Positions 29,829 to 37,398 of a stretch of DNA of 63,452 bases are shown here, piece after piece. The translations under genes and the position numbers were made by a program. Source of the DNA: Deltaproteobacteria bacterium (lineage in GTDB: Bacteria > Desulfobacterota > Desulfarculia > JACQYL01); assembly GCA_016208165.1 (NCBI GenBank), contig JACQYL010000117.1, positions 1-63,452 of the forward strand, written 5' to 3'. The notes beneath the pieces were generated by a model, which was not told the origin of the DNA, searched no databases, and saw only the letters and a list, made by a program, of their open reading frames with translations. Position 1 is the first letter of the stretch, and each line of letters opens with the position of its first letter.

Positions 29829-31196
29829 CTACCGGTCATCTTCCGCCACCATTCTGTTCCTGCCTCCTGTTTTGGCTCTATACAACGCCTGATCGGCTCG
29901 CTCGAAAAACGATGCAGCGGTATCGGCGGCTTTCAAAGAAGCCAACCCCAGGCTCAGCGACACTTCCACGTAGGTGTCCGCGTCTTTGTGAAGCTTGAAA
30001 GGCTTCGACCCCACCGCGGCGACAATCTCGCGACCCAACTTCCGGGCCTTCTCTTCAGGCATATCTTTAAACAGAATGAGGAACTCGTCCCCTCCCAGCC
30101 GGCCGAGAAAGTCATCTTTCCGTATGCTGGAACGGGCAATCTCAACCACCTTTTGCAGTACTCGATCGCCGGTCTTGTGCCCGTGGGTATCGTTGATGCG
30201 TTTGAAGTGATCTATGTCAAATATCATCATGACGGCCGATGCGTTGTCCTGAGCCATCAACGTTTCGAGCATTTTGTCAATCGCTCCGCGGTTGAACGCT
30301 TTTGTCAGGGGATCCACCATGGAGCGAAGTTTAAACAGCTTGGCTTCTTCCTCAGCCTTCTTGGATTGCGCCTTTACTCGCTGAAATTTTTCTTTGGTCG
30401 CCTCCAGTTTCTTCTGCAGTTTTTCCATCCTCACTGCCATCTTCCGGGATCGATCGTCTTCCGTTTTCCTCTTCTCGGTAAGGGCCGCCCTGATGTCGTT
30501 TATTTTCTGCATGACCCGTTGCTGGATATGGTTGAGGTCCAGATTGAGGCGAAAAGCGGTTTCGATCTGGACGATGTCCTCTCGCATACGTTCCTGAAAA
30601 GCTTGTTCCCCCTGGGCCCGTTCGGCTTCATCCGCGCCGCCGACACTGCTCAGGAATTCCTCCTCGAACTTCAGGAGCTGGAACGTAATGCTCTTTATCA
30701 ATTCATTTCGAGAGCGATTTTCGATATCGACGTGCTCGCGCAACGACGCAAAAAGAGAAAAAATGTTCTCTAGATACTTGTAGTAGACGTCCTGATCAAA
30801 CTTTTGCCTGATCTGTGTCGCCACTCCGCCGGCCTTGTTCCTGAGTTCACCCGGCCAATACAGAGCGAATTGGCCGCAGACCTGTATCAGCAACTCGGCC
30901 ATGAGTTCCAGATATCTGTTTTCAACCTCCTCGATCGAAAGACCGAATCCTCCCGTCGTTTTTTCAGGGGGCTCTTTCTGCACCTCCTGCTGAAACACGC
31001 TTTCCCGCAGGTCGGAAACGAGATGCTCCACCGTTTTCAGATACGGTCGGTCCTGATTCAGTTCCCGTTTAAGCTCGCTCATGTGATTTCGCGCAGCGTC
31101 ACTCACCAAGGTTTCTCCCGGAATCAGAGACACCGCGCTTTTAAGGATTCCGCGATCCTTTTCCGGAAGATCGTCTCTCAAATTTTCAGAATCCAT
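29829..31196 (-). CDS. GGDEF diguanylate cyclase with N-terminal helical domain
   Basis: A 455-residue protein. The C-terminal 165 residues are a full GGDEF domain (DPLTKAFNRGAIDKMLE; MMIFDIDHFKRINDTHGH; LGRLGGDEFLILFKD), with the active-site GGDEF intact and an RxxD inhibitory site five residues upstream. It should make cyclic di-GMP from GTP, with product feedback. The first 290 residues are helical with long coiled-coil runs (TEDDRSRKMAVRMEKLQKKL); no transmembrane segment or known sensor domain is seen. It lies before the flagellar block, and c-di-GMP may influence motility. Its 5' part carries one copy of the 56-bp repeat found inverted at 31592-31647. Confidence 0.93.
   Translation of the reverse strand: MDSENLRDDLPEKDRGILKSAVSLIPGETLVSDAARNHMSELKRELNQDRPYLKTVEHLVSDLRESVFQQEVQKEPPEKTTGGFGLSIEEVENRYLELMAELLIQVCGQFALYWPGELRNKAGGVATQIRQKFDQDVYYKYLENIFSLFASLREHVDIENRSRNELIKSITFQLLKFEEEFLSSVGGADEAERAQGEQAFQERMREDIVQIETAFRLNLDLNHIQQRVMQKINDIRAALTEKRKTEDDRSRKMAVRMEKLQKKLEATKEKFQRVKAQSKKAEEEAKLFKLRSMVDPLTKAFNRGAIDKMLETLMAQDNASAVMMIFDIDHFKRINDTHGHKTGDRVLQKVVEIARSSIRKDDFLGRLGGDEFLILFKDMPEEKARKLGREIVAAVGSKPFKLHKDADTYVEVSLSLGLASLKAADTAASFFERADQALYRAKTGGRNRMVAEDDR
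31009..31064 (-). repeat. 56-bp inverted repeat, copy 1 (inside GGDEF gene)
   Basis: These 56 bases, inside the GGDEF coding sequence (the stretch encoding about ELNQDRPYLKTVEHLVSDL), are an exact reverse complement of 31592-31647. Since they fit the GGDEF reading frame, this copy is the likely donor. See the second copy for the recipient site. Confidence 0.9.
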
Positions 31197-31403
31197 AGTC
31201 CGTTTCTCTGCGAAGGAAATTCTAGCCTCGGCCCTTCGGTGAACATGATGGCGATTTCAGCTGCGCCGGAAACCCGGAGAACTACGGGGGCGGACAGTTA
31301 AGACGAGAGAATGGCGGTTGGTGAAGAGTCCGATCCCCATCGACCGGTCATGTACGAACCGGCCGGCAGCGGCTGAGTCGCCATGAGTAACCCGGAAACA
31401 CTG

Positions 31404-31591
31404 TCAGAAATCCAGTGAAATCCCCACGAGGACGGAGAGATCGGGATCGCTCTCTTTGTCCACGTAGGCGGACTTCCGATAGCGGTCAAGGTCCAATCCC
31501 AAAAAAAACTTCGTATCTTGGGTAGGTCGATACTGGATGCGAATTTGGTTCCGGTTCGAACCATCTAATCGGTGGGAGGCGACGGAAAGCC
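31404..31591 (-). pseudogene. 3' remnant of an outer-membrane beta-barrel gene
   Basis: Frame on the minus strand with no start codon of its own. It encodes about 60 residues of alternating hydrophobic/polar strands (NQIRIQYRPTQDTKFFLGLD; SVLVGISLDF-stop) and ends in phenylalanine, the classic C-terminus of outer-membrane barrels recognised by BamA. Upstream of about 31592 the frame runs into the inserted 56-bp repeat and meets a stop. I read it as the tail of a barrel gene whose body was lost in the rearrangement. The family cannot be named from this much. Confidence 0.55.
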
Positions 31592-32317
31592 GAACTGAAT
31601 CAGGACCGACCGTATCTGAAAACGGTGGAGCATCTCGTTTCCGACCTCCACAGGAGCACCCGGCGCCGTAGATGCTACTGCCGCATTCGTCTCAACAACG
31701 TTCAGGGTCAGACCGTCCGCCACTGCGTTTTCAGCGGAGATCGAGTCTGTCGGCCCATATTCCGGGATGCTCAGCTCGCCGGTATACAGCGGCATGGGCA
31801 TACTGTCCCGGGCAAGGGCGTCGAGACATTCCTTTTCCACGGAGCGGGCGTCCGGCGAATCAGCGTTTTCTTCACCGGCTTTCAAGGCGGTGGACTCGGA
31901 AGAAAGCGATTGCCGGGTTTCCGTGTCTTTTTCTGGCTTGGAGCTCTGGATTTCGGGAATAGACAGGCTCTGTCCTACCTGAATCAGGTCGGGATTCTCC
32001 AGGCCGTTCAAATCCGCAATGGCCTTCACATCCACTCCGTAAGCCTTGGATAACCCCCAGAGCGTATCACCCGAGCAAACTGTATGTACCAGGCGTTGAC
32101 TCGAGAGTTTCAGTTGGTCCTGAAATGTGGCCGCATCCGTTCCGGAGGCCTCGTCTTCAAATGTCAGTCCGGCCCCCTCTTTCAGAAACCAGCGCCCCGA
32201 CTCCCCCAATTTCCCCACGGCGTGAGGATTCTGACGTTGAATTTGCTTCCACGTTACGTTAAACCGCTCTTTAATGGCCGTAATGGTGTCGTGCTTCTGG
32301 ACAACGTACTCGACCAT
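31565..32317 (-). CDS. LysM-domain protein, probably with rearranged C-terminus
   Basis: A 250-residue protein. There are two LysM-like modules: a weak one at 4-50 (YVVQKHDTITAIKERFNVT) and a good one at about 80-125 (HTVCSGDTLWGLSKAYGVDV; NPDLIQVGQSLSIPE). A Ser/Glu-rich low-complexity linker follows. LysM binds peptidoglycan glycan strands; no signal peptide is seen at this start. The last 26 residues (from VGNEML on) come from the inverted 56-bp repeat plus a few further codons, so the natural C-terminus appears replaced. It begins 10 bases after fliW, so it is probably co-transcribed with the flagellar operon. Confidence 0.7.
   Translation of the reverse strand: MVEYVVQKHDTITAIKERFNVTWKQIQRQNPHAVGKLGESGRWFLKEGAGLTFEDEASGTDAATFQDQLKLSSQRLVHTVCSGDTLWGLSKAYGVDVKAIADLNGLENPDLIQVGQSLSIPEIQSSKPEKDTETRQSLSSESTALKAGEENADSPDARSVEKECLDALARDSMPMPLYTGELSIPEYGPTDSISAENAVADGLTLNVVETNAAVASTAPGAPVEVGNEMLHRFQIRSVLIQFGFPSPPTD
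31592..31647 (+). repeat. 56-bp inverted repeat, copy 2 (in LysM gene 3' end)
   Basis: This copy reads on the plus strand as the GGDEF gene reads on the minus strand, so the two copies are in inverted orientation, 527 bases apart. It sits exactly where the LysM frame loses its natural end and where the barrel remnant begins. There are no differences in 56 bases, so the event is recent, or the copy is an assembly or amplification artefact. Confidence 0.9.
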
Positions 32318-32327
32318 AACCGCGTCT

Positions 32328-32756
32328 CTATCCCAGGAATCTGTGACGGGTCGAATAATCCGAATCCGTCAAAACCAGCTGTTTTGCCACGTTGATTTTC
32401 GTGTTGATCAGTATGGGACCCGCGAGATTCGCTGTAATCCGGGAAGGATCCTGCCCCACGGTGACAATACAGTACACCACACAATCCTCCACGTTTTCGA
32501 TAGAAATCGCCGCGGCGTCTTCCGGCTCCAAAGCGATCCTGTAATCCGGTTCTATGGACCGTGGATCAACGACCACAAAGGCCAATTCCGGGTCTTCAGC
32601 GGACTGGAGCCACTTAAACGGACTCGATTTGTCCGATTCGAGAAAGAAATACCGCTCAAAACCGGAAAATCCGAGAATGCCCTCTTTCACCGACATTATG
32701 GCCGTCTCTTCGACGTCTAGGTCACCAAAACGGGTCGTGCTAACTTTCATGGTCAT
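32328..32756 (-). CDS. fliW: Flagellar assembly factor FliW
   Basis: A 142-residue beta-barrel-like protein. FliW binds flagellin or CsrA: free FliW sequesters CsrA and so relieves repression of flagellin translation. Family features seen: FGDLDVEETAIMSVKEGILG, FSGFERYFFLE, PFKWLQSAEDPELAFVVVDP and the late PILINTKINVAKQLVLTDS. Length is typical. Its start overlaps the csrA stop region (ATG 32756 or 32750 lies before the csrA TAG at 32742-32740), a coupling that fixes the ratio of the two. In this window the probable CsrA target lies in the flagellin leader at 7903-7947. Confidence 0.97.
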   Translation of the reverse strand: MTMKVSTTRFGDLDVEETAIMSVKEGILGFSGFERYFFLESDKSSPFKWLQSAEDPELAFVVVDPRSIEPDYRIALEPEDAAAISIENVEDCVVYCIVTVGQDPSRITANLAGPILINTKINVAKQLVLTDSDYSTRHRFLG

Positions 32757-32997
32757 CTTTTCCGGGGCTGCGCTTCAGCCAGGCCTCTGTGACTCGCTGC
32801 AAATCCGGAACTCCGGCCTTGGCCGCTAGGATGTTCTCTTGCCTTACCTTCAGATAGATCTCTTCCCGATATATGGATACGCTTTTGGGTGCATCGATAC
32901 CCAGTTTGACCTGTCCGCTTTTGATCTCCATGATCGTGATGCGGATATCATCTCCAATGGTGATCGTCTGGCCCTCTTTCCGGGTAAGTACGAGCAC
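32740..32997 (-). CDS. csrA: Carbon storage regulator CsrA
   Basis: An 85-residue RNA-binding protein, which dimerises and binds GGA in hairpin loops, often over ribosome binding sites. N-terminal MLVLTRKEGQTITIGDDI, then VKLGIDAPKSVSIYREEIY, is the family hallmark; the C-terminal tail after VRQENILAA is somewhat long (family about 60-75). The start is GTG at 32997 with GGAGGG before it. It is encoded between flgL and fliW, the classical position in non-enteric flagellated bacteria. This implies control of flagellin synthesis by assembly state, consistent with the flagellin leader hairpin. Confidence 0.97.
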   Translation of the reverse strand: MLVLTRKEGQTITIGDDIRITIMEIKSGQVKLGIDAPKSVSIYREEIYLKVRQENILAAKAGVPDLQRVTEAWLKRSPGKDDHES

Positions 32998-33120: not shown

Positions 33121-36100
33121 CTAATCCAAGAAGTCCAACAGACTGAGAGATACCAGACGTGAAGCAGACTGCAACGTCGCCTGAACCGCTTGTTCCTGGT
33201 TGAGCAAACGCGTTATAGCCTCCGTGATGTCTACGTCTTCCGCTTCCGACAGCAGTCCTTTGAGTTCCAGACTATACTGCTCGATGTACTGCTGTGTTTG
33301 ATCGACGATCTGGAGTCTCGCTCCTGATTCCACCAAATGCTCCGAAAACCGGTCCATGCCTGCCTGCAGGTTTGCGGCTACGTTCTCGAGCGATTCGGAA
33401 TCGTTATTCATCAGAGCCTGTTTGAAATCATACAGGGTATCCAATATGTCCCGACCGGCCGAAAGGCCCAGGAGTTGCGCAGTATCGTCATCTACGCTTA
33501 ACACCACGGGTACGGCGCCGTCAATCAGTGATTCCAGTTTGAGCGCCGTTGAATTCTTATTGAATTTCGATCGCACTTCAACGTCGGCCGAATTGATTCG
33601 GGCCATCAGTTCACGCATGTTCCGGACGCCTTCCAGATCCACTTCAACCCGTTTGGAGCCGTTGACGATTTCTATCTTACCCGGATCCACGCCTGCTCCA
33701 CCGTAAAGGTCTCCGACCCCGGTGTACGCCTTCAGCAGAGGATTGAGGTCCGTGCCCGTAATACTGCTCGGCATACCCTCCGCCCCTGCGGTTTCGTCCG
33801 AGTATTGGGGCGAAAACGGACCGGCTCCGGAAAACACCCAATCGGTTGTAATGCCCAGAACGGATGCCGCGGATGACCCGGCGCCGGCGGGCAGCGGGCT
33901 CGTAACCCAATGGATTTCCATCTCCGTGGATGGGGTTATGGCGAACACGCCCCTATCCGGCGAGTAATCCACCTGGAACGTGGCAGTGGTCTCGTTCGTG
34001 GGATCCGTAATGTCCAAAGCCTGCTCGAGGACGTTTTTCAACGCTTTCGCCATCTGATTGCCGTTATACGTCCCCGGAGTCAGCGTCGCCTGGTAGGTCG
34101 TCCCGGACGCTGCCGAAGGTATGCTGAAATAGACGGTATTGATGTTGTCATCGATCGTAATCAGGCGATCCTCTTTGTAGATTCCCAGATCCCGCGCCGT
34201 ATCCGACATGAAAACCCGCATGTTCGTCACGCGATCCCTCGGGTCGTTGGTGTCGATCAGCTCGAGACCGTTGCCTTCCCCGTTCATCAGCACCGTGATG
34301 TTCACTCCGGCCGAAGCAAAACCCGCGTTCATGCGCTCTACGAAATCATGCACCGTAAGATCCGGGATGACAAATTGACTGGTGTAGGACACTTCGCCCA
34401 CCAGCGTCGAACCATTGACGAATCCCAGAAGATCCGAAGCGTTCCCCGCCACGGTCCAATCGAGCGTTACCGGCGGCGCTCCGTCTTCATTGATAAATGT
34501 GAAGGTTCCATCCCGGAACTCCACGGTGTAGTCATGACCGCCGCCGGAAGCCAGGGATTCCGCCTCCATCCGGCTTTCAATCGCCTGCGCCAGCTGGGCC
34601 CCGTCATAGAAACCCGGCGGTATTTCCACCTGCGCCACCCCTCCGTCATTGAATCGAATGATGTTGTTCCGGTTTGCGCCGCCCCCGATCACTTCGAAAG
34701 GCGCCATATCGATCCGGGCCAGGTTTCCGGCTCGATCCATCGCGCTGACGTGGTAAGTTTGTACGGCGTAGTCACTCGTGTACGAAAGGGCTCCGGATGT
34801 AGCATACGGTCTGAAACCCAACAGTCCCAGAGCGGTTGAGGCCGGATCCGCCCAATCTAGGTCGAGGGAGCCTCCGCGCTTCGCTATGCTGAATCGTCCG
34901 TCGGAGTAGTTAACCGAAAAGTCCATGGACGCTGTCGCGTTATTGAATTCCTGTTCTATCACGGCCGCCAACTCCTCGCCGGTGTAGGTCCCGGAAGGGA
35001 TGGCAAGGACTCCTCCTCCCAGATCGCTGTTGTAGCTGATCGAGTTGTTGAAGGCATCCACCACGTATTGCGGCGGGGCTTCCATACGAATACCCGCTCC
35101 CCCATTCAGATCCTTTACAAAAACGGAGTCCGTACCGTCGTCATAGTAGGAATTTTCCCGATACTCGCGCGCCAGATCGAGAGACAGCGTCTGTCCGGCC
35201 GCCCATCCCGAAACGTCCAGGTGCAGATCCCCCACCAGGTCGCCATCGAAATCCAACTCGATACTGGAAGCATTGGATGAAGTTACGGATAGGGACGGAA
35301 AACCGCCGTTGTCGGCAATGGCCCAGGTTCCGCCCGCCTGGAGTGTGAGATCGATTTGGTGATTCGACGGATTCAGGATGGAATCCAGATTCAGCAGTGT
35401 CGTCGAATCCAAACTCCCCGGCCCGCTTCCTGCGATCGTAATTCCGGCTTCAGTGGAAAACCCGATCGTTCTCAAGAAATCGCTTTGCCTCTCAGGGCCC
35501 TCACCGGCCATCAGTCGAATGGTGGACGTCATGCCCGAGCTTTGGGAAGTAATGGCAAACTGGCCCCCCCGGCTTTCGGAATAATCGACTTTCACGGCGT
35601 TGGTGGCCGCGTTGATCCTGGACTGCATGTGATCGGCCAGCTCTTCAGCGGTATATGCACCGGCGGCCAGAGTGATCTCCGTAACCCCCCCGCCGTCCAC
35701 GTTGATCCGGAACCGGTCGTTGACACCGCTAAGTATCGTGAATTCGACCTCTTCCTCGCTGGTGACCACATCGCCGGCGTTCAACGGATTCGGATCCCGA
35801 TTCGCAAATGCGAGCGTCTCCCTGATCTCGCTGGCCGTCCACAGCAATTGCATGTCGGAGTTGTTCGACTGATTGTTCGTTATGGTGAACCGGTTCAGTG
35901 TCTCCTGATCGTCGATAAAGTCGTACTCCACGCTGTACTCAAACGAGAATCCGGAAGCCGCGCTCTTGGCTTCCATCGCCTGTGCAACAAAACGCGCCAC
36001 CTCTTTTCCGTCGTACACGACTCCTCGAACCGCATCACTGTCCGCCAGGAGATCCGCCGTGACGGTAAAATCCTTCCGGTTAAACGTTGATTCCACCTGC

Positions 36101-37398
36101 GTTTGATCGAACGCCGTACCGGCCGTCTCCGTGGCGGTGAACGTATCCGAACCCGGCACGCCCGCTTTGGCCGCTACCGTCAGTTCATCGGTGGTCGCGT
36201 CGTAACGCGCTGTGAGCCATTGCGAAAGCACCGTATTTCCATTGACGGCGTCCGCCAGATCGGCCCCCAACGCGTCCTGGGTAGGGGGAACGCCATAGTT
36301 CACGGTTATGGTTTCTTCCGTATTCCCAAATTGGAAGTTGATCGAGTACGTGGTGTCCCCCAGCGCCGCCGAAACGGTGTTCACCGCCGCATAGCCCGTT
36401 TCCACGAACACCAGCGAGTCGTTGGTATCGTCAAACACAAATCCGGAATCGACTTCAGCCACGGCGCCGGAGAACCGGCTGTGACTGGTGCTGAACGGCG
36501 TGGTGACGGTCCTCATCTTATAACTATTGCCCGTTTCGTCCGAAGCTTTGGCCGTGAGGCTGAAGACACCGTCTTCGTATGTGGCGTCGACGGCGTCGTT
36601 GAGATCAAGGTCGTGCCGGACGGCTCGCACCAGGCCGCGTCCGAGTTCATCCTGGGTTGCCGAAGCACTGGTGGTATAAGAAACCGTGTGATCCACGCCG
36701 TCATCCAGCGTGATCGTGATGTCGTAGGTGCTATTATCGGCGGGGTTGGATAACACCCAGTTGTTCAGTTGCGCCTGTTGTCCCGTGGCCATACCACTAT
36801 ACGCATACGCCAGTTTCCCGGTGTTATTATGGGGCTCGGCGATGACCGGGTTCAGATCCGCCACCAGGAAGTCACTTCCCGGGAGGTTGTAGGCCTGGAA
36901 AACCCCGTCGTTTATTTCCGCCTGTATGCTCTTGCCATTCCCGTTGTATGTGCCGTCGGCATTGAATGGCGCATATGCGGTCCGGGTGCCGCCGAAAATG
37001 TAGGAATTGCCGACTCGCGTGTTGCCCAGACGAATCAAGCTCTCGATTACACCTTCTATCTCCGTCACAGCGGCCTGCCGGCTTTCCGCGCTTTGAGTTC
37101 CATTGGCCTGTTGGACCGCCAACGTTTTGGCCCCCTGAAGCAGATTCGACGCTTCCTGCAGCACGCTCTCCGTGGTGGACAACCAGGAATCCGCACGCAC
37201 TATGTTTCGAGGATATTGTTCGGTCCTCGAAATCACTTCCCTGTAAGACAGGATGCGCCCCATATCCAGCGGCCCGTCCGAAGCCTTGAGCACCTGTTTT
37301 CCGGTGCTCACCTGGGTTTGATATTCGAGCAGGCGTTCTTGATTGTTCAGGATGCCGCCAAGTATGGACTGGTAAATCATGTTTTGGGTTACTCGCAT
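33121..37398 (-). CDS. flgL: Giant hook-filament junction protein FlgL
   Basis: A 1425-residue FlgL, three to five times the usual 300-400. The terminal parts are normal: residues 1-150 have MRVTQNMIYQSILGGILNNQ, QVSTGKQVLKASDGPLDMGR and GNSYIFGGTRTAYAPFN; the last 100 residues are helical (LLSEAEDVDITEAITRLLNQ). Residues about 150-1310 form a huge central insertion. It contains four copies of a 80-100-residue module (556-648, 782-862, 910-993, 1083-1183) and two related units at about 225-297 and 351-426. GGGAGGA precedes the ATG. FlgL joins hook to filament; the insertion should project outside the junction, and may match the giant flagellin filament in girth. It lies in flgM-flgN-flgK-flgL order. 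Confidence 0.96.
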   Translation of the reverse strand: MRVTQNMIYQSILGGILNNQERLLEYQTQVSTGKQVLKASDGPLDMGRILSYREVISRTEQYPRNIVRADSWLSTTESVLQEASNLLQGAKTLAVQQANGTQSAESRQAAVTEIEGVIESLIRLGNTRVGNSYIFGGTRTAYAPFNADGTYNGNGKSIQAEINDGVFQAYNLPGSDFLVADLNPVIAEPHNNTGKLAYAYSGMATGQQAQLNNWVLSNPADNSTYDITITLDDGVDHTVSYTTSASATQDELGRGLVRAVRHDLDLNDAVDATYEDGVFSLTAKASDETGNSYKMRTVTTPFSTSHSRFSGAVAEVDSGFVFDDTNDSLVFVETGYAAVNTVSAALGDTTYSINFQFGNTEETITVNYGVPPTQDALGADLADAVNGNTVLSQWLTARYDATTDELTVAAKAGVPGSDTFTATETAGTAFDQTQVESTFNRKDFTVTADLLADSDAVRGVVYDGKEVARFVAQAMEAKSAASGFSFEYSVEYDFIDDQETLNRFTITNNQSNNSDMQLLWTASEIRETLAFANRDPNPLNAGDVVTSEEEVEFTILSGVNDRFRINVDGGGVTEITLAAGAYTAEELADHMQSRINAATNAVKVDYSESRGGQFAITSQSSGMTSTIRLMAGEGPERQSDFLRTIGFSTEAGITIAGSGPGSLDSTTLLNLDSILNPSNHQIDLTLQAGGTWAIADNGGFPSLSVTSSNASSIELDFDGDLVGDLHLDVSGWAAGQTLSLDLAREYRENSYYDDGTDSVFVKDLNGGAGIRMEAPPQYVVDAFNNSISYNSDLGGGVLAIPSGTYTGEELAAVIEQEFNNATASMDFSVNYSDGRFSIAKRGGSLDLDWADPASTALGLLGFRPYATSGALSYTSDYAVQTYHVSAMDRAGNLARIDMAPFEVIGGGANRNNIIRFNDGGVAQVEIPPGFYDGAQLAQAIESRMEAESLASGGGHDYTVEFRDGTFTFINEDGAPPVTLDWTVAGNASDLLGFVNGSTLVGEVSYTSQFVIPDLTVHDFVERMNAGFASAGVNITVLMNGEGNGLELIDTNDPRDRVTNMRVFMSDTARDLGIYKEDRLITIDDNINTVYFSIPSAASGTTYQATLTPGTYNGNQMAKALKNVLEQALDITDPTNETTATFQVDYSPDRGVFAITPSTEMEIHWVTSPLPAGAGSSAASVLGITTDWVFSGAGPFSPQYSDETAGAEGMPSSITGTDLNPLLKAYTGVGDLYGGAGVDPGKIEIVNGSKRVEVDLEGVRNMRELMARINSADVEVRSKFNKNSTALKLESLIDGAVPVVLSVDDDTAQLLGLSAGRDILDTLYDFKQALMNNDSESLENVAANLQAGMDRFSEHLVESGARLQIVDQTQQYIEQYSLELKGLLSEAEDVDITEAITRLLNQEQAVQATLQSASRLVSLSLLDFLD
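33850..35733 (-). repeat. Four-fold protein repeat encoded within flgL
   Basis: Modules at 35455-35733, 34813-35055, 34420-34671 and 33850-34152 each encode a strand ending in [L/I]xxGxYxxxxLAxxh, a short helix, then VxYxxxxGxFxI and a hydrophobic strand and closing LG[F/I]. Examples: IPSGTYTGEELAAVIE, IPPGFYDGAQLAQAIE, LAAGAYTAEELADHMQ, LTPGTYNGNQMAKALK. The copies are diverged at the DNA level, so the duplications are old. The pattern is of adhesin-like or fibre-like domains displayed outside the junction. Confidence 0.75.

Follow-up and report, generated by a model that had tools for sequence, protein, structure and literature searches.

A perfect 56-nt inverted repeat in a flagellar locus of a Desulfobacterota draft genome: a probable inverted templated insertion into a LysM reading frame

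How did 56 nucleotides come to stand twice, in opposite orientations, within two neighbouring reading frames of a flagellar locus? The question is raised by a contig in the draft genome of a Deltaproteobacteria bacterium, where one copy lies in a diguanylate cyclase (GGDEF) ORF and the other in an ORF with LysM domains. We analysed the whole stretch of 63,452 nt (hereafter the window), which is contig C117 of the 142 contigs of the draft. The repeat is truly present in the sequence supplied. It most likely arose by an inverted templated insertion of an ordinary kind, if of unusual length, that breaks the LysM ORF; an artefact of library or assembly is the main rival.

The repeat and its gene neighbourhood

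The genes around the repeat are encoded on the minus strand in the order flgH, flgI, flgK, a flgL-like gene, a csrA-like gene, fliW, the LysM ORF, the GGDEF ORF and a glycosyltransferase gene. Pfam matches gave the assignments of flgH, flgI, flgK and the flgL-like gene, the last under a name of our own (the actual match is Flagellin_N). The csrA-like gene is tentatively named from our reading of its sequence, without a family match. The flgL-like gene (window positions 33121–37398) is unusually long, with 1425 aa and a flagellin N-terminal domain. At its 5′ end, the window has 94 nt in common with the end of contig C92. No sigma-70-like promoter match was found within positions 30900–32800. 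The features on which the argument depends are the following.

29829–31196, minus strand: GGDEF (diguanylate cyclase domain) ORF, 455 aa, intact (Pfam PF00990, E = 1.9e-38)
31009–31064, plus strand: copy 1, the probable source, at codons 45–63 of the GGDEF ORF, which is read on the minus strand
31065–31591, no strand assigned: spacer of 527 nt, with the GGDEF start, about 200 nt of intergenic sequence and the tail frame
31407–31591, minus strand: tail frame, the best coding frame there, of beta-rich appearance, putatively named as a possible outer-membrane barrel end
31592–31647, minus strand: copy 2, the inverted and probably inserted 56-mer within the LysM ORF
31565–32317, minus strand: LysM ORF, 250 aa as assembled (Pfam PF01476, E = 3.4e-23, two stretches), its frame altered by copy 2

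The two arms are complementary at 56 of 56 positions (100%) and are separated by 527 nt. An earlier note on this DNA had described the repeat in these terms and had placed copy 1 in the GGDEF frame; both descriptions hold. Among the other perfect inverted matches in the window, the longest has 17 nt, and the single direct perfect match of at least 16 nt has 16 nt. In random sequence, the expectation for a perfect pair of such length in the window is about 6e-25. Identity drops immediately outside the arms to chance level (7/40 and 12/40). Across the whole genome (5,685,540 bases in 142 contigs), the 56-mer has two sites, both in the window. Copy 2 is the exact reverse complement of the nearby copy 1, which is the relation expected of a template switch.

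Copy 2 interrupts a reading frame

Both sides of copy 2 are coding-like, but in different frames. The coding score (LLR per codon) is 0.220 on the LysM side and 0.171 in the tail; windows of real genes have 0.186 on average. In a wrong-frame control, 1567 of 7800 windows were open, 65 of which scored at least as high as the tail. The 56 nt amount to 2 mod 3 and shift the frame; when they are removed in silico, the LysM and tail frames are continuous and form a single ORF with 285 aa, a join for which the odds by accident are one in three. Because of these three properties (coding-like sequence on both sides, a length of 2 mod 3 and frames that join in its absence), copy 2 is probably the derived, inserted copy. 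Copy 1 is probably the source of the 56-mer, since the GGDEF N-termini of class relatives (e.g. loci L053, L054, L059 and L063) align across it, as weak matches (tblastn E of 0.002–0.5, in a set of 19 loci), and copy 2 forms an antisense-reading stretch within the LysM ORF. The simplest history of the site would have one ORF receive an insertion of 56 nt.

This differs from the earlier picture, in which the LysM frame lost its own end exactly at copy 2 and was followed by the tail of a separate barrel gene. The ORF stays open through copy 2 and meets its stop eight codons past it, and the two supposed genes become one continuous frame once copy 2 is taken out. What stands of the 'barrel' tail is that it is the best coding frame of its stretch and has a beta-like pattern; the name itself found no match to a family, a PDB entry or a relative. 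The best Pfam match of the tail has an E of 0.13, PHROGs and NCBIfam gave no matches, and PDB gave none up to an E of 10. Homologues of the tail were found in none of 394 other genomes of the phylum at E ≤ 0.01, at no usable E in 62 other genomes of the class (best 0.068), and in no plasmids. A single-sequence structure model has four strands at low confidence (pLDDT 54). The beta-like look suggests that the tail may be a barrel end.

Relatives and rarity in the genome

Searches with the LysM ORF, the GGDEF N-terminus and FliW in the genome itself and 59 class relatives gave no relative closer than the class, and a search for FliW in named genomes gave no close or same-family genome. FliW is present in 46 of these 60 genomes (own and class relatives). 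We fetched its locus for 30 matches, including the one studied here, each extending no more than about 1.5 kb beyond FliW; within this reach, FliW has this LysM gene as a neighbour (E ≤ 0.01) in none of the 29 loci of relatives. In 11 loci from named genomes, inspection by eye of the first 60 residues of the ORFs revealed no such LysM ORF after FliW.

The part of the genome that we read comprises 140 pieces with 2,386,571 bases including masked N, i.e. 2.39 of 5.69 Mb (42%). At a minimum length of 24 nt, 13 perfect inverted pairs occur in it; the 56-nt pair is the longest of them and the next has 47 nt. BLAST on 138 of the 140 pieces (two all-N pieces were left out) identified 15 inverted pairs at most 3 kb apart. 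The 56-nt pair is the sole one at 100% identity; five longer pairs have 75–83%. When ten other perfect pairs were laid out, some extended as imperfect longer repeats (e.g. in L174 and L140) and others were short elements with unrelated flanks. Since there is no second such case in the 2.39 Mb, the 56-nt repeat stands as one isolated event within the 42% examined, where neither the genome nor its assembly shows a general tendency to such copies.

Some other repeats were observed along the way. Short dispersed inverted or palindromic elements occur in L038 (8805–8828 and 9103–9126), L174 and L201, and may be an intergenic repeat family. Locus L129 (G000:C20:1-20000) holds an array of several direct repeats of about 1–1.5 kb with 78–88% identity. 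Contigs C76 and C102 of G000 are entirely masked N.

Origin of the repeat

We consider it probable that the repeat arose by one recent inverted templated insertion through two local template switches, a known type of mutation. Synthesis in the LysM ORF would have left its own template at about position 31648, would then have copied 56 nt from the complementary strand in the adjacent GGDEF gene (31009–31064), and would have returned to its own template at about 31591. The outcome would be a LysM protein with a short false tail and its original C-terminal frame cut off, the GGDEF gene being left unchanged by the event. We infer that the event was a cellular one, in which the template was switched at a replication fork or close to it, and that it is recent because the copies show 0/56 differences. 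Among the causes that the earlier note had listed, template switching is now the best supported, a chimera is its chief competitor and an invertible switch is disfavoured, as that note held.

The repeat resembles short-range template switches, as in the four-point model and the quasipalindrome type of E. coli, in being a sharp-edged reverse-complement copy of nearby sequence at a second site. For hominids, a study that looked for templates up to 100 nt away gives short-range switches a median copied length of 12 and a maximum of 128 (PMC7954356); 56 nt copied over 527 nt is thus longer and farther than typical. The direction of a template switch is normally read from comparison with the ancestral site, whereas here it comes from the weak alignment of the GGDEF family. 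Quasipalindrome template switching in E. coli is stimulated by DNA–protein crosslinks (PMC6357072). There is also a likeness to MMBIR-like inverted templated insertions, whose junctions contain sequence from close by in inverted form and may include a deletion. Described cases are paired inverted switches with microhomology of 3–30 bp at amplification junctions in E. coli (PMC3161906) and templated inverted duplications, most of 5–34 bp, in yeast break repair (PMC11724301). A break, a deletion or microhomology would be putative features of the present event.

In a variant with the same mechanism, LysM and barrel would be two genes whose intervening sequence was lost, the 56 nt filling the joint. 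Our reading of the tail as similar to the final strands of some larger beta barrel, and of the LysM ORF as having no obvious signal peptide, speaks for this history, because the two together would make a single LysM and barrel protein odd. Against it, the frames join exactly without copy 2, which chance would achieve one time in three, and the barrel identity has no homology support and a structure model of low confidence. A plain insertion into one ORF and an insertion accompanied by loss of sequence between two genes are equally parsimonious. We regard the deletion variant as less likely than not; whatever weight it has is part of that given to the templated insertion and does not add to it.

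An artefact of library or assembly would mean that the reverse copy entered the contig through a chimeric molecule, e.g. an inverted one made by strand-displacing amplification, or through a false path. We think this unlikely, yet well worth keeping in view: the genome is a draft in 142 contigs, and a perfect copy in a broken ORF is what an artefact is expected to look like. Many chimeras from multiple displacement amplification (MDA) are inverted joins of nearby sequence, and the repeat is similar in that the copy is inverted and its template lies no more than about 1 kb away. MDA is known to produce chimeric rearrangements (PMC1855051). Unlike such a chimera, the repeat needs two switches whose joins both come back into register, and it is the sole case in 2.39 Mb, where many would be expected from amplification. 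A recurrent artefact of amplification or assembly is disfavoured by this one case in 2.39 of 5.69 Mb. The contig ends also speak against an artefact. Among 171 ends (of 175; N-rich ends were dropped), ten end pairs have common sequence, and in seven of the ten it is exactly 141 nt long. This implies that the assembly came from a de Bruijn graph with a k of 141, a value typical of MEGAHIT, so copy 2 and its flanks fit within one k-mer, and reads should have to support the final graph over the whole of copy 2. An origin by a 56-nt collapse in a de Bruijn graph with a k of 55 was set aside, as the contig ends point to a k of 141. Contigs carried up from lower k, or an amplified chimeric molecule, could still be misleading sources.

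Two further explanations have very little weight. As the ends of an invertible DNA switch, the 56-nt arms would be perfect arms around a short segment that contains the GGDEF start. We inverted the spacer in silico: the LysM ORF then has 320 aa, extended into antisense sequence, while the GGDEF ORF goes from 455 to 400 aa and loses its start. The two orientations do not both make sense for the genes, in agreement with the earlier claim that the inverted state restores no intact gene. A switch therefore has a very slight chance, also given that one arm is ordinary coding sequence and that 15 neighbourhood proteins scanned (5 + 10) had no match to recombinase or transposase families. The least probable explanation of all is a repeat or mobile element, e.g. 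a small element with two inverted copies. Other short inverted repeats are present in the genome, but this one is not multi-copy, having only its two copies there; one of them is part of a protein region common to relatives, and the flanks share no ends.

Consequences and meaning

A minus-strand transcript that spans the region folds into a structure with the 56-bp stem; its minimum free energy is −311.3 kcal/mol, whereas 20 shuffles gave −235.6 (z = −10.4). It is important to highlight that this stability is a consequence of the repeat itself and does not indicate a function. We give only a slight chance to the insertion being functional at the RNA level. In that case, a LysM-to-GGDEF transcript would have its GGDEF start enclosed by a perfect stem of 56 bp, and the LysM message would act as an antisense to that of GGDEF; less c-di-GMP could then be made, in what is a flagellar locus.

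Neither outcome, a real event or an artefact, would change the field. An artefact would serve as a warning that chimeras can create ORF ends in draft genomes. If real, the repeat would show, in a bacterium and in nature, a clean case of an inverted templated insertion that is long, spaced and still perfect, in a lineage for which we found no close relative.
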